In this document: in pieces, positions 42,392 to 48,000 of the stretch
Numbering within the stretch: the stretch's first letter is position 1
How the letters are laid out: every line of letters starts with the position of its first letter
Source: Phycisphaerales bacterium
GTDB taxonomy: Bacteria; Planctomycetota; Phycisphaerae; Phycisphaerales; UBA1924
Direction: 5' to 3'
NCBI GenBank assembly: GCA_029260345.1
Contig: JAJDDK010000006.1
Location: forward strand, 248,001-312,000
DNA length: 64,000 nucleotides
Notes under the pieces: generated by a model
The model's input: only the letters and a program-made list of their open reading frames with translations
Databases searched by the model: none
What the model was told of the DNA's origin: nothing
Program-made: the position numbers and the translations under genes

Positions 42392-43426
42392 GTGAGTTGG
42401 AACATCACACTCCTGCTGATTTATCTGAACCTCGCGGTGTCGGTGTCGTTTTTGTGCTCGTTGTGCGAAGCGAGCCTGCTGACTCTGACGCGGGCTGATG
42501 CAGAATCGCTGGCACGTAAGCGGCCGCGCATTGGCGCGAAGCTCAAGGCGATGAAGCAGGACATTGATCGGCCGCTCGCGGCGATTCTCACGCTCAATAC
42601 GATCAGTCACACCGTCGGCGCCGCGGGCGTGGGCGCGCAAGCGACGATTGTCTTTGGCGGGTGGGTTGGTTTGACCAGCGCCGTGCTCACACTCATCATC
42701 CTTGTCGTCAGCGAGATTGTTCCCAAGACCATCGGCGCCGTGCATGCGCGGCGGGTCGCGCCGTTTTGCACCATTGTCGTGCACTGGATGATTTTGATTT
42801 CGTATCCGATCGTCTGGGCGCTGGAGTTGCTTGGGAAATTGTTGAAAGGCCGAAACCGCGAGCAGTCACCAACGCGCGAGGAGATCCTCATCCTCGCCGA
42901 GATGGCTCGCATCGGCGGCGTTCTGGACCGCGATGAACAATCCGTCATTGCGAACATGCTGCGCCTGCGCGAGATTCGGGCGGAGGAAGTGATGACGCCG
43001 CGGACGGTGGTGTTCATGCTGGATGCGCGCTCGACGGTGCAGGAGGCGCTCGATCATCATCCGCGAATACAGTTCAGCCGCATCCCGGTCATGGGCGACG
43101 GTCCCGATGATATTCGTGGCCTCGCGCTGCGCACGGATATTTACGAAGCCGCCGCGGCCGGCAAACGTGATCTTTCGATCGAAAGCCTGAAGCGCGACAT
43201 CGAGGCCGTGCCGGCGACGGCGAAGCTGATGGACGTGCTGAAAACATTCGCTGAAACGGGGCATCATTTATTCCTCGTCGTCGATGAGTACGGCGGCACG
43301 GCGGGCGTGATCGCGCTAGAGGACGTCATCGAAACAATGCTCGGGAAAGAGATTGTGGACGAGACGGACCCGGCGCCGGATATGCGGAAATTGGCGCGAC
43401 GAGCGCGCAAGAGGCGGAAGGGCTGA
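42392..43426 (+). CDS. CNNM/CorC-family transporter (DUF21-CBS)
   Basis: The 344-residue protein has a DUF21 membrane domain (about residues 5-150, with LCEASLLTLTRADAESLARK and ILVVSEIVPKTIGAVHARRV) followed by a pair of CBS domains (VMTPRTVVFMLDARSTVQEA, then HLFLVVDEYGGTAGVIALED). Members are linked to Mg2+ or Co2+ efflux and to tolerance of metals. The third, CorC/HlyC-type domain is absent, and the protein ends in a basic tail (RKLARRARKRRKG). The start is GTG. Palindromic repeats begin a few bases after the stop. Confidence 0.88.
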   Translation: MSWNITLLLIYLNLAVSVSFLCSLCEASLLTLTRADAESLARKRPRIGAKLKAMKQDIDRPLAAILTLNTISHTVGAAGVGAQATIVFGGWVGLTSAVLTLIILVVSEIVPKTIGAVHARRVAPFCTIVVHWMILISYPIVWALELLGKLLKGRNREQSPTREEILILAEMARIGGVLDRDEQSVIANMLRLREIRAEEVMTPRTVVFMLDARSTVQEALDHHPRIQFSRIPVMGDGPDDIRGLALRTDIYEAAAAGKRDLSIESLKRDIEAVPATAKLMDVLKTFAETGHHLFLVVDEYGGTAGVIALEDVIETMLGKEIVDETDPAPDMRKLARRARKRRKG

Positions 43427-43432
43427 TCCCTT

Positions 43433-43467
43433 CCCCTCCCGCCCCGCGGGAGGGGTTAGGGGAGGGC
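43433..43467 (-). repeat. Solitary palindromic module (3' type, inverted)
   Basis: A perfect 10-bp stem CCCCTCCCGC/GCGGGAGGGG with a CCC loop (43433-43455) is followed by TTAGGGGAGGG. It matches the 3' module of the composite elements B and C, read from the other strand. It sits next to element A and could also act as a terminator for the CorC-type gene. Confidence 0.75.
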
Positions 43468-43475
43468 CGTCTTTT

Positions 43476-43623
43476 CCCCCTCCCGCCCTGCGGGAGGGGG
43501 TAGGGGGAGGGCTATAGAACTACACCCTTCTTCATGTCTCCTCGCGCTGTCAACGTTCGAGGCGAGAAGAAGTAGTAGAAGCAGTAGCCCCCTCGTCAAT
43601 CCTCCCCCGCAAGACGGGGGAGG
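43476..43623 (-). repeat. Composite palindromic element A (inverted copy)
   Basis: This 148-bp element, read on the - strand, has three parts: a 5' module (CCTCCCCCG/CGGGGGAGG stem), a spacer of about 80 bp that is itself an imperfect hairpin, and a 3' module (CCCCCTCCCGC/GCGGGAGGGGG stem). The spacer aligns with that of element B (shared GAGGGGGCTACT and TAGCCCTCCCC ends, related middle). Its 5' module ends 6 bp from the stop codon of the DUF559 gene. Confidence 0.8.
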
Positions 43624-43629
43624 AGGGGA

Positions 43630-44001
43630 TCAGGTCTCCCGAAGCTCTTCAATTCTCTGCTGAATCATCCGAAGCACACCAACAAGATTGCGGCTGACAT
43701 CACTCGCCGTCACTCGAATGATGTGCAGTCCATGATCCCGCATCCAAGCATCACGCTCGGCGTCGTAACCAAGCCGTCCGTCATGCGCGCGGCTGTCGAT
43801 CTCAATAACGAGTTGACATTCTGAACAATAGAAGTCCGCAATGAACGGACCGATCGGATGCTGGCGACGGAAACGAACGCCAAGGCCGCGCCGGCGCAGT
43901 CGTGACCAGAGAATGCGCTCAGGAGGCGTGGTGTTGCGGCGGAGTCGCTGCGCGCGGAGCTGCGTTTTGTATTCCGGTTTTGGAAGACGGCGATTTGGCA
44001 C
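43630..44001 (-). CDS. DUF559 endonuclease-like protein
   Basis: The 123-residue protein belongs to DUF559, related to Vsr and other PD-(D/E)XK nucleases. It has KTQLRAQRLRRNTTPPERIL near the N-terminus, then RFRRQHPIGPFIADFYCSEC with the first Asp, and QLVIEIDSRAHDG with the E-x-D pair of the active site. The final part is DAWMRDHGLHIIRVTASDV. Catalytic residues appear intact. The start is GTG, with TACACT 6 nt upstream. The gene is enclosed by inverted copies of a GC-rich composite repeat. Members of the family are often found near such repeats in my recollection, which I cannot verify here. Its target is unknown. Confidence 0.88.
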   Translation of the reverse strand: MPNRRLPKPEYKTQLRAQRLRRNTTPPERILWSRLRRRGLGVRFRRQHPIGPFIADFYCSECQLVIEIDSRAHDGRLGYDAERDAWMRDHGLHIIRVTASDVSRNLVGVLRMIQQRIEELRET

Positions 44002-44007
44002 GCGAAG

Positions 44008-44013
44008 AGTGTA
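44008..44013 (-). promoter_or_regulatory. -10-like element 6 nt before the DUF559 gene (leaderless type)
   Basis: TACACT on the - strand, a 6-nt gap, then GTG at 44001; no Shine-Dalgarno sequence. It lies outside the repeat modules. Confidence 0.45.
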
Positions 44014-44039
44014 ATTGATGGAAGGAGACCTTCCGCCCT

Positions 44040-44076
44040 CCTCCCCCGCCTTGCGGGGGAGGACCGAGGAGGGGGC
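44040..44076 (+). repeat. Solitary palindromic module (5' type)
   Basis: CCTCCCCCGC/GCGGGGGAGG stem with a CTT loop (44040-44062), followed by ACCGAGGAGGGGGCT. It matches the 5' module of elements B and C in the same orientation and lies directly before element B. Confidence 0.75.
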
Positions 44077-44086
44077 TCTCTGACCT

Positions 44087-44232
44087 CCTCCCCCGCCCCG
44101 CGGGGGAGGACTGAGGAGGGGGCTACTCCGTCTACCAATCCTTCACGCCTCAAACGTGAACAGTGCAATGAGGAATGTAGAAGGGAGTAGTTCAGTAGCC
44201 CTCCCCTAGCCCCTCCCGCGAGGCGGGAGGGG
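44087..44232 (+). repeat. Composite palindromic element B
   Basis: This 146-bp element has a 5' module (44087-44109), an AT-richer spacer (about 44110-44195) and a 3' module with CCCCTCCCGC/GCGGGAGGGG around a GAG loop (44210-44232). With element A it forms an inverted pair around the DUF559 gene. The spacer keeps GCTACT near its left end and AGTAGCCCTCCCC at its right end. Confidence 0.8.
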
Positions 44233-44246
44233 AGGCAGATTGGCCT

Positions 44247-44397
44247 CCTCCCCCCGCCTTGCGGGGGAGGATTGAAGAGAGGGTTCCTCCTTCTATTTCG
44301 TACTACCCAGCCTCCTCGCGCTATTGCTCCGAACGAGGCAAGTAGGAGCGGTAGCCGGAGTAGCCCTCCCCCAGCCCCTCCCGCAGGGCGGGAGGGG
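44247..44397 (+). repeat. Composite palindromic element C
   Basis: This 151-bp element lies in direct orientation with B. Its 5' module has one extra C in the left arm (44247-44270). The spacer contains CCTCCTCGCGCT and GAACGAGGCAAG, an imperfect internal hairpin related to that in element A. The 3' module is at 44375-44397 with an AGG loop. Confidence 0.8.
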
Positions 44398-44469
44398 GGG
44401 CCGACTAATTCCGTTCTAACCATGTCCACTTTTTTGTGGAGCACAACGCAAAGACTGGTCGCACAAACA

Positions 44470-45030
44470 TCAGGGTTTGTGCATTTCAAAATGGAGAAGT
44501 TGAACCGTCCGCAGCGACAGCACAAGGTGCCGACCCCAATGGTTCGCAAGTCCCCAATTCAGATCCCATGCAGCGTCAACTCTTGCGATGTCAGATCCCA
44601 GATTCCATACTCGCTCTGCGCTTCGGAGATCTCTATACAAATCAACAAGGTCATCCCAAAGCATCCAAATACGGTGACCCTCGTCGTTTTCGCCGCTTTC
44701 CTCAAGCTCAACTTTGGCTGCATCAAGATCCGGCTTCAATTGTGTGTGTAGACGGCGCGAAATGTCTTGCGTCTCCTTGGTGTTTACTCGCAACTCATGG
44801 AATTCCTTATCTTCCTGCGGCTTTAGCTCAACCGTAAAGGCACAAATATCAAACAACGTTTCTGAGCGTCCAGCAAGTCGGAACAGCAGGCGGAACAAAC
44901 GCTCATAAAAATATGGCTGTGAATACTCTGTCTCAATATTCTCAATGAAGTCGCAGTAATCTTTAGCGACTTGGAGAAACGCCACCATTGTGGCCACGTC
45001 TTCTCTGTGAAGGGGTTCAAATCTTGACAT
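44470..45030 (-). CDS. DUF5063-like protein
   Basis: The product has about 186 residues. It begins MSRFEPLHREDVATMVAFLQ, then VAKDYCDFIENIETEYSQPY; the helix with YCDFIEN and the C-terminal NHWGRHLVLSLRTVQLLHFE match the DUF5063 layout as I know it. The protein is soluble, helical and acidic. Its function is unknown. Its start lies 4 bp after the putA stop on the same strand, with GAGG before the ATG, so it is the second gene of a putA operon. Its codon use is less GC-biased than that of putA. Confidence 0.65.
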   Translation of the reverse strand: MSRFEPLHREDVATMVAFLQVAKDYCDFIENIETEYSQPYFYERLFRLLFRLAGRSETLFDICAFTVELKPQEDKEFHELRVNTKETQDISRRLHTQLKPDLDAAKVELEESGENDEGHRIWMLWDDLVDLYRDLRSAERVWNLGSDIARVDAAWDLNWGLANHWGRHLVLSLRTVQLLHFEMHKP

Positions 45031-45034
45031 GACC

Positions 45035-48000
45035 TCACAACTCCGGCGCAAACCCCCGCCGCATCATGTTCTCGCACGATGCTCTTGGCTCCACGAACTG
45101 GTACAGATACTCCGCCCCGCCCGCTTTGCTGCCGACGCCGCTCATGCCGAAGCCGCCGAAGGGTTGGCGGGCGACGAGGGCGCCGGTGATGCCTCGATTG
45201 AGGTAGAGGTTGCCGACGCGGAACTCGCGCTTGGCGCGCTCCAGGTGGCTGGGCTTGCGGCTGAAGACTCCCCCGGTGAGTTTGTAGGGTGAACTGTTGG
45301 CGAGTTCGAGCGCTTCGCCGAATGTCTTGACCTTCATCACCGCCAGCACCGGGCCGAAGATCTCTTCGCGCGCAATGGCGTGATCGGGCTGCACCTCCGC
45401 GAAGATGTGCGGCGCCACGTACGGCTTGCCGACTTTCTCTTCCAGCCCTGCGGGAATCTCCATGCCCAGCGCGAGGCGCGACTGCTCCTTGCCCTTGGCG
45501 ATGTAGTGCTCGCACTTGTTCTTCGCTTCGGCATTAATCACGGGGCCGATGTCGGTTGATTGTGACGCGGGGTCGCCGATGACCAGCGTGCGCGTCGCTT
45601 CGACGAGGCGGTGCAGGAAAAGGTCATACGCGCTTTCGAGCACGATCACGCGGCTGCACGCGGAGCACTTCTGCCCCTGAAAACCAAATGCGCTGGTGCG
45701 CACGCCCATCACGGCTTCGTCGAGGTCGGCCGAAGCATCGATGATGAGCGCATTCTTGCCGCCCATTTCGCAGACGACTTTCTTGACGTGGTGCTGGTCG
45801 TCCGGCGTGGCGCCCGCGGCTTGAATAATGTCCAAACCAACGGCTTTTGAGCCGGTGAAGGCGAGAATCGCGACGCGCGGATCGCGGACGAGCGCTGCGC
45901 CCGTCGTTTCGCCGGGCCCGGGCAGGAAGTGCAGCGCTTCGCGCGGACAGCCTGCTTCGTACAGAATGTCCGCCATGATGCGCGCGATGCCGGGCGTCTG
46001 TTCGGCGGGTTTGACCACGACGGTGTTGCCGGTGACGAGCGCGGCGGTCGTCATGCCGGTGCAGATTGCCAGCGGGAAGTTCCATGGGGAGATGACGGCT
46101 GCGACGCCGCGCGCCTGATGCCACGTTTCGTCGAGTTCGCCGATGAATCGTCCGACGCGCTGGCGGTCGAACAGCGGCACGGCGAGGCGCGCGTAGTACT
46201 CACAGAAGTCGATCGCTTCGCAGACATCGGCGTCGGCGTCGCGCCAGCACTTGCCGTTTTCTTTGATGATGACGCCGGACAGGCCGTCGCGCTGTTCGCG
46301 CATGATCTGAGCGGCGCGGGTGAGAACGGCGGCACGCTCGCGCGGGTCGGTGTCGCGCCACGTCATGAAGTATTCGTGCGCCGTCGCGACGGCTCGTGCC
46401 GCATCTTCCGGCGTGCTGTCGTTGGCTACACGCGGAACAGTTGCGTTCTTCACCGCGGCGCCAAATCGTTCGCGGTCTCGCGCGATCGCGAAATCGCGCA
46501 TGGACTCGTTCATGAACGGCCGCTCATCGCCGACGCCCATGACCGCCGGCGACATGCCGTGTCGTTCGCGCGCACTGGAGAGGTCGGAAGGTGAGGGGGA
46601 GCCAAACGTGGACGACGCCTGATCGCGCGCCAGCGGCGCATGCGGATTGCGCAAGAGCTGTTCATCGCTCGCGTTGTCGAGGAAGCCCGCTTTCAGCCAT
46701 GATTCATTGGAGGTGTTCTCAAGGAGGCGGCGCACGAGGTACGCCATGCCGGGGATCATCTCGCCGACGGGGACATACTCGCGCACGCGCAGGCCCATCT
46801 CGGCCGCGGCGTCCTTGAGCTGATCCGCCATGCCGTGCAGCATTTGCAGTTCGATCGCTTCGCGCGGCAGGCCGCGACGCTCAAGGCCTGCGAGTCCGAA
46901 CGCGATGGAGCGCACGTTGTGCGAACCGAGTGCGAGTTTCACGCCGCCTTCACCTGAGGCGCGCGGCGTTGAATCCAGGAAGATGTCCGTCATGCGCTCA
47001 AAGCACGCATCGCTGTCACGCTTGATGGACCACACGGGGCACGGCCAGCCCATTTCTTCGGAGTGAATGGTTTCGTAATCCCAGTAAGCGCCTTTGACGA
47101 GACGCACGGTGACGACGCGTTTGGCTTTCTTCGCCCATTCGCTGACACGCCGCGCATCGTCATCGCCGGAGCGCAAATACGCCTGCATGGCAATGCCGGC
47201 GTGGAAGTCGATTTTCTCGCAACAGCGCTGGAAAAGCTCGATGGTGAGGTCTTTGAGCTCGAACTGCTCCATGTCGAAGTTGATGAAGACGCCCTTGTCA
47301 CGTGCGAGTTCGAGGATGGGGAGCAGGCGCGTCATGACGTCGCGGATCGCGCCTTCGGTGTCGATGGGGTCCGTCATGCCGGAGAGCGAACTGATTTTGA
47401 TCGACACGTTGACGCGCGGCGCCTCGCCGAGATGGTCGCGCTCCAGGCGGTCATTCGCGGGCCAGCCCTTCACCGCGTCGGGAAGATTGGAGACGAGATC
47501 GAGGTACTTGGCTTTGTATTCATCAGCTTCGTAGCTGGAGATGCACGCTTCGCCGAGCAGGTCAACGCTGAATGCGATGCCGTCGTCCCAGAGCTTCTTG
47601 AGCGTCGGCACCGCGGAGAGCGCATCGGTTCCCGCGATGAAGCGCTCGGCCATGCCTTTGATCTGTTTGGCGGTTGTGTTTGCGAAGATGGTTTTGGCGG
47701 CGCCGCCCGCTTTCAGGCCGATCCCGAATCCGGGAGGGGGGGTCACGCCGGGCTGACTCATGTAATCGAGCAGGTGATCGTGCACCGACTCGGGCGTGGT
47801 GAGCGTTGGGAAGGCATCGACGAAGCGGAAGAGTTGAACCTTGAATTCGCGGTCCTTCATGGACCAGTCCATGAGTTTGTCCGACCAGAACTGACGCGAC
47901 AGCAGCCCGGTCTTGCGCTTGCGCGCGCGATCGAGCATGTCTACACCCAGGGCGAAAATGCGGGCGTCATCGGCGTCTGTCGCGGCGGGCGCCAGAGGCT

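Follow-up and report, generated by a model that had tools for sequence, protein, structure and literature searches.

The window analysed here is a stretch of 64,000 nucleotides corresponding to C6:248001-312000 of a 3.4-Mb source genome in 8 contigs. It carries a small DUF559 gene surrounded by palindromic repeats, and the block is made up as follows:

Ends at 43426: CNNM/CBS-domain gene, the left neighbour of the DUF559 block
43433-43467, plus strand: single module, left; hairpin CCCCTCCCGC..GCGGGAGGGG at 43433-43455, tag TTAGGGGAGGGC at 43456-43467
43476-43624, plus strand: composite A; left part with hairpin at 43476-43500 and tag to about 43512, then the spacer; right part with tag at 43586-43599 and a gene-facing hairpin of the CCTCCCCCGC type at 43600-43624
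43630-44001, minus strand: DUF559 (PF04480) nuclease gene, 123 aa, GTG start
44039-44077, plus strand: single module, right; hairpin CCTCCCCCGC..GCGGGGGAGG at 44039-44063, tag CCGAGGAGGGGGCT
44086-44233, plus strand: composite B, inverted relative to A; hairpin at 44086-44110, tag at 44111-44124, spacer, tag at about 44197-44208, hairpin at 44209-44233
44247-44398, plus strand: composite C, more diverged than A and B; hairpin at 44247-44271, tag, spacer, tag at about 44360-44373, hairpin at 44374-44398
44470-45051: DUF5063 gene, directly past composite C

The modules each comprise a hairpin and, to one side of it, a G-rich tag; two single modules and three composites make up the block. Composites have the order hairpin-tag-spacer-tag-hairpin, the tags of A, B and C facing the spacer. 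Between 43433 and 44398 of the window there are eight hairpins, each of one of the two named types. The exact palindrome patterns occur 2 and 4 times in the window against a mean expectation of 0.00, and neither was found in 100 window shuffles. An initial annotation had described the DUF559 gene as enclosed by inverted composite repeats. This was confirmed, as 43443-43626 and 44084-44267 are inverted copies, forming arms of 184 nt that are 72% complementary. The further details of that description, namely the inversion of copy A relative to B, the gene being faced from either side by a CCTCCCCCGC-type hairpin, and the close abutment of the left repeat on the stop codon, were borne out; the last left hairpin ends at 43624, and five bases separate it from the stop codon. 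Folding of the element as single-stranded DNA, a check proposed in the same annotation, gave z-scores of -6.6, -6.4 and -3.1 for A, B and C, respectively (C folded from 44249 to 44398), the predicted shape featuring two outer hairpins and a central stem built from tags and spacer. Terminal inverted repeats around the gene, as expected of insertion sequences and MITEs, are present in the window and at several other loci. The region 43300-44500 has no Rfam match above the gathering score.

The 123-aa protein matches the Pfam DUF559 model over residues 13-117 with 99.4 bits (cut-off 20.6). Residues D56, E67, D69, H73 and D80 are invariant across 50 sequences; in 17 further sequences, E67, H73 and D80 are invariant and D56 and D69 nearly so. 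Foldseek searches with an AF2 model of the window protein (pLDDT 92.6) retrieved N. gonorrhoeae 3hrl (E 1.8e-6), the catalytic domain of the homing endonuclease I-Bth0305I (3r3p, E 2e-4), which was also matched at an HMM E of 0.0004, and Vsr (1vsr, E 0.025). The modelled protein has a PD-(D/E)XK/Vsr-like fold, its acidic residues being conserved in the alignments, and the 3r3p match gives it the fold of EDxHD homing endonucleases. EDxHD enzymes have been grouped with homing endonucleases and linked to two-metal hydrolysis (PMC3943268). In a 2005 paper, YcjD of E. coli was assigned to the PD-(D/E)XK nucleases, and its profile was found to detect Vsr (PMC1189080).

Two other roles were considered for these proteins and rejected. 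For a defence-system reading, PADLOC returned only weak hits with the window protein (E 0.0026 and 0.0046) and no hit with a second DUF559 protein of the same genome. Phage or plasmid cargo was dismissed as well, since relatives of the second protein are rare, occurring in 39 of 72,556 plasmid records (some of the 39 being chromosome-sized) and in 2 of 50,697 phage records.

Copies of the repeats are dispersed in the source genome, where the exact CCTCCCCCGC..GCGGGGGAGG palindrome occurs 25 times, against 0 occurrences of a reversed control. BLAST searches with a 227-base query containing composite C returned at least 60 matches, or at least 35 places when matches within 1,200 bp are merged; both counts are lower bounds, as 40 of 49 candidates were scored. 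Among the 35 places, one is the window locus and one adjoins the second DUF559 gene (C2:109674, L001). The latter is flanked by a different composite family with at least 91 matches (40 of 117 candidates scored). Each DUF559 gene is thus flanked by its own family, and members of both families are present at some places. The window repeats, being multi-copy, dispersed palindromes in inverted doublets, have the organization of REP/BIME elements. The two families are often adjacent as mosaics, for instance at C5:235011-235501, C4:375496-375870, C5:641639-643261, C6:228563-229126 and elsewhere.

Genes of other nuclease families in the phylum of the window were used as controls. After loci with stretches shorter than 3,000 bases had been dropped (6 of the 44 DUF559 and 8 of the 30 GIY-YIG loci), at least one palindrome with pyrimidine-rich arms was found within 300 bp of the domain at 35/38 DUF559 loci versus 1/22 GIY-YIG loci, and palindromes on both sides at 24/38 versus 0/22. 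Only one of nine weak or long-frame DUF559 matches (L062-L066, L070-L073), seven of which are in frames longer than 1,000 aa, has palindromes; hence, only some DUF559 contexts seem to show the link. Within 100 bp, palindrome density is 5.71/kb at 21 DUF559 genes versus 0.79/kb at 19 genes of the Y1_Tnp (RAYT) family, and past 500 bp it falls to 0.05-0.24/kb for both. The source genome has three Y1_Tnp matches, and no such palindrome lies within 400 bp of the one examined (L179). Another locus of the phylum, L180 (G072:C66:13146-13909), has a DUF559 gene with a partial Y1_Tnp match immediately next to it.

The presence of the gene is also reflected in whole genomes. Among 294 phylum genomes, five with only weak or long-frame DUF559 matches were set aside, and the palindrome excess (count minus reversed-pattern control) is at least 10 in 27/43 genomes with stand-alone DUF559 versus 23/246 without. 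An excess below 5 was found in 14 of the 43 DUF559 genomes, eight of which belong to one family (f50). DUF559-free genomes with an excess of at least 10 include two, G023 and G209, from the family of the window.

Named loci were also surveyed, using the best 80 of 213 relatives that a single scan found for the second DUF559 protein. According to record titles, the 80 loci come from Planctomycetota, Alpha-, Beta-, Gamma- and Deltaproteobacteria, Chloroflexota, Nitrospirota, Bacteroidota and others. At 64 loci, the DUF559 gene is small (ORF <700 nt), and pyrimidine-arm palindromes within 100 bp of these genes reach 6.13/kb upstream and 4.00/kb downstream, with 0.03-0.17/kb past 500 bp. Other hairpins show little or no rise (2.5 and 2.1/kb near versus 1.5-2.2/kb far). 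Four of the 64 genes are too close to a contig end, and 60 were counted against 395 control ORFs of at least 600 nt from the same loci. Of the DUF559 genes, 46/60 have at least one palindrome within 200 bp, compared with 26/395 controls (Fisher 6e-32), and 14/60 versus 0/395 have palindromes on both sides (Fisher 1e-13); no palindrome was found within 200 bp of the remaining 14/60 small DUF559 genes. By group, the counts are 14/15 in Brevundimonas, a single genus that supplies a quarter of the counted genes, 9/13 in other Caulobacterales, 5/7 in other Alphaproteobacteria, 6/9 in Beta- and Gammaproteobacteria, 2/3 in Deltaproteobacteria, 4/4 in Planctomycetota, 5/7 in Chloroflexota, 1/1 in Nitrospirota and 0/1 in Hydrogenedentota, with none scored in Bacteroidota. 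Palindrome modules adjoin DUF559 genes far more often than control genes. The enrichment whose absence would have refuted the initial annotation is present in named loci of several phyla, in the 294 phylum genomes, and in the comparisons with Y1_Tnp and GIY-YIG genes.

Inverted similarity between the left and right 200 bp exceeds the 99th percentile of controls at 23 of 74 scored loci (80 given); taken alone, it is a weaker signal than the palindrome counts and is not general. Comparing protein distances with palindrome k-mers by a Mantel-type test at 51 loci yielded a rho of -0.33 (far flank, -0.22; permutation p 0.001), a result that we do not count as evidence because it is confounded by taxon.

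Modules are oriented with respect to the gene. Using a tag expression of our own definition, the nearest palindrome could be oriented at 29 of 41 loci on the left and at 20 of 22 on the right, and its tag points at the gene in 26/29 (binomial p 1.5e-5) and 15/20 (binomial p 0.04) cases, respectively. The simplest unit, found in G073, has one module per side in the order hairpin-tag, gene, tag-hairpin. The window is an exception, in that the tags nearest the gene point outward, indicating that the gene sits between composites and not inside one.

The other 16 of the 80 named loci have ORFs of at least 700 nt, and 10 of these feature an in-frame pyrimidine-arm palindrome within 300 bp upstream of the assumed start of the DUF559 domain. 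At L113:9731-11659 (candidate division KSB1), DUF559 is in frame inside MnmE (mnmE); as we read the sequence, it appears to be preceded by a short initial piece of the TrmE N-terminal domain and followed by the remainder. At L123, L128 and L173, DUF559 occurs in a DNA methylase together with an intein C-terminal region that scores above the NCBIfam cut-off and below that of the Pfam intein model. The frames of these three loci encode runs such as PASGEGMGGAE, which may be translated repeats. At these and other named loci, intein-like inserts in DNA methylase genes have DUF559 as their nuclease domain, and runs of apparently translated palindromic repeats are found beside it in the same frame.

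In E. coli K-12, the gene that separates sapF from fabI, ycjD, belongs to DUF559 (Pfam 167 bits) and adjoins the same type of composite. In strain 2017-02-2CC, a clean composite follows ycjD, consisting of CCCTCACCCC plus hairpin, spacer, and hairpin plus TTAGGGTGAGGGG. The ycjD-type composite may be the repeat known as box C. A sapF-ycjD-fabI query is at least 80% covered in 3,330 of 5,426 genomes. According to a published survey (PMC12817139), ycjD occurs in phylogroups A, B1 and C, as well as ST69 and ST182, eefRABCD being absent there. The composite occupies a median of 18 places per genome having any (range 1-37), and 60 records were sampled at even steps out of 5,393. As a stand-in for the ycjD locus, we used a full composite match (at least 80% covered); five inspected hits carry ycjD, and one (strain ES1), which does not, was counted with the records lacking the stand-in. 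Of the sampled records, 38 contain the stand-in, with a median of 20.5 places (13-36), and 22 lack it, with a median of 4 (1-16); 9 of the latter still have 11-16 places, including three O157 records with 14. The copy number in E. coli follows the ycjD locus, but the relation is confounded by lineage, and the genomes are non-independent. Strain ES1 (L289) carries a full-length composite between cpxA and yiiM and has 16 places; its best match is not at ycjD.

The DUF559 gene of Sinorhizobium sp. K101 (Pfam 114.5 bits) is enclosed by two composites whose inverted ends read GCCCCTCACCC..GGGTGAGGGGC, and in S. meliloti Ak57 the right composite is cut where an IS4-type gene follows. Pieces of the Sinorhizobium query, mostly modules, match 93 plasmid records (60 of them listed) from Sinorhizobium, Rhizobium, Shinella and two others; 4 of the 93 cover 80% of the region. 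On pAQ6 of PCC 7002 (L221), a DUF559 gene is found amid CCCC..GGGG palindromes. The pAQ6 repeats, CCCCTAAATCCCC..GGGGACTTTCTACTGG and CCCCC..GGGGGTTAGGGGGC, are an AT-richer relative of the pattern.

Sites differing in repeat content were compared in genus g24 and at two E. coli loci, none of which revealed a clean empty site or a target duplication; the mobility of the gene-bearing unit is therefore only inferred. The left flank of the G073 element is matched in all six g24 congeners, the orthologous site of which holds other DNA. Judging from translations, the site seems to be occupied by an SDR-like ORF in three congeners and by a short stretch of unrelated DNA in a fourth; in the remaining two the right flank has no match, and one of these seems to have an SDR-like ORF further on. 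At the E. coli yijF-gldA locus (L229, L232, L233, L236), the same flanks enclose, depending on the strain, either a ycjD-type composite or a different element, presumably REP-like. At sstT-alx (L227, L234, L235, L237), a K-12 derivative and an O157 strain carry the full composite, while two other strains have a single chimeric hairpin. The 75-bp difference is flanked by GGGAGAGGG and could be explained by simple deletion between the GGGAGAGGG repeats.

On balance, we favour the view that a stand-alone DUF559 gene and its adjoining pyrimidine-arm palindromes constitute one mobile or self-copying unit. From the association, the inverted modules, the dispersed gene-free copies, the tag polarity and the fold, we infer that DUF559 cuts the modules and that the cutting spreads them. 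DUF559 would act as a Vsr/EDxHD-type nuclease that recognizes the module, probably as a hairpin or cruciform, and nicks or cuts it, and copying or movement would then start via repair or recombination. The gene-bearing form would be autonomous, and the gene-free composites its non-autonomous version. Such a unit would work like REPIN/RAYT with an unrelated, non-HUH nuclease, YcjD and the composite repeat being the E. coli pair. The initial annotation had likened the layout to REP/BIME elements with a RAYT transposase, or to a nuclease gene mobilized with its own repeats. The enrichment at DUF559 genes supports this interpretation, movement being conjectural. A literal RAYT system is not supported, given the lack of palindromes around the one Y1_Tnp gene of the source genome that was examined.

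The strongest competitor, to which we give a smaller though real chance, is that the nuclease gene homes into palindromes spread by something else. DUF559 would cut the repeat, the gene would be copied into the break together with its repeat arms, and the repeats would be target and not product. The match to a homing-endonuclease fold and the occurrence of DUF559 inside inteins and mnmE speak for homing, as do the repeats in genomes lacking the gene, both in the phylum (23/246 with excess of at least 10) and in the 9/22 E. coli records without the stand-in (11-16 places). Against this, the repeat excess follows DUF559 presence, and Y1_Tnp, a known REP mobilizer and the only other mobilizer considered, shows no comparable enrichment. 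The same genes bear on the most improbable of the alternatives, in which RAYT moves ordinary REP/BIME elements and DUF559 is a passenger. It would accommodate the inverted palindrome doublets and the three Y1_Tnp matches of the source genome, but is disfavoured by the low palindrome density at the 19 Y1_Tnp genes of the phylum, compared with the 21 DUF559 genes, and by the bare surroundings of L179. RAYT as the main mobilizer was rejected because the Y1_Tnp genes examined are without enrichment.

It is also unlikely that palindromes simply pile up, with no functional link, in insertion-tolerant or recently gained regions populated by small accessory genes. DUF559 is indeed patchy (20/41 genomes), and the two repeat families of the source genome cluster at shared places, but small GIY-YIG (1/22) and Y1_Tnp genes lack palindromes, the enrichment is gone within 300-500 bp, and tags are preferentially oriented to the gene. 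A role of DUF559 as a Vsr-like nuclease in mismatch repair or genome maintenance, with palindromes as terminators or regulators of its gene, appears slightly less plausible still. Caulobacter VsrA, which has a DUF559 domain, has been put forward as a very short patch repair enzyme (PMC12907096); however, the repeats are multi-copy and dispersed, flank the gene left and right and also occur within coding frames, and hairpins of other types show little enrichment.

Bacterial genomes commonly contain palindromic intergenic repeats, and for many families no enzyme is known. If DUF559 is the enzyme behind the pyrimidine-arm class, a family of unknown function would gain a role and several orphan repeat families a common origin, with a homing-type nuclease driving a multi-copy repeat population and not a single allele. 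The broader proposal, which we regard as evenly poised, is that DUF559 is a second, non-HUH enzyme class spreading REP-like palindromes across phyla. It would explain orphan families such as the ycjD composite, with gene-bearing units autonomous and gene-free doublets their derivatives, and the same unit would in addition have inserted itself into inteins and, in frame, into a housekeeping gene. The model is directly testable in E. coli K-12, where ycjD adjoins a composite whose copy number varies by strain. The literature searched, mostly titles and the beginnings of abstracts, with subscription journals largely outside, reports no link between DUF559 and palindromic repeats.

Among known systems, REPIN/RAYT is similar in having inverted palindrome doublets with a spacer, dispersed and with a nuclease gene beside copies, and in that a genome can hold several families, every one of them close to the enzyme that belongs to it (PMC3116915). 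For REPINs, putative intermediates have been described among population sequencing reads (PMC3116915). It differs in the enzyme, which is a Y1 HUH transposase in REPIN/RAYT and a PD-(D/E)XK/Vsr-like DUF559 protein here. REP palindromes carry tags of the GTAG/CGTC classes at their foot (PMC3733652); the tags described here, TTAGGGTGAGGGG in E. coli and TTAGGGGAGGGC in the window, are recognized by presence and not by class.

The fold of the nuclease domain is shared with the homing endonuclease I-Bth0305I (3r3p, EDxHD), and DUF559 is found in inteins as well. Unlike I-Bth0305I, which has an extended DNA-binding region (PMC3943268), stand-alone DUF559 proteins consist of the nuclease domain only and lie beside multi-copy palindromes. 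Vsr (1vsr) has a related fold and Caulobacter VsrA contains a DUF559 domain, but Vsr repairs T:G mismatches in methylated motifs (PMC12907096), and a search of the text of that paper for "palindrom" gave no occurrence. RIMEs, the rhizobial repeats, are mentioned in PMC2573895. The composites beside ycjD and beside the DUF559 gene of Sinorhizobium share the hairpin-plus-tag build. They resemble E. coli box C and rhizobial RIME in being GC-rich palindromic intergenic repeats.
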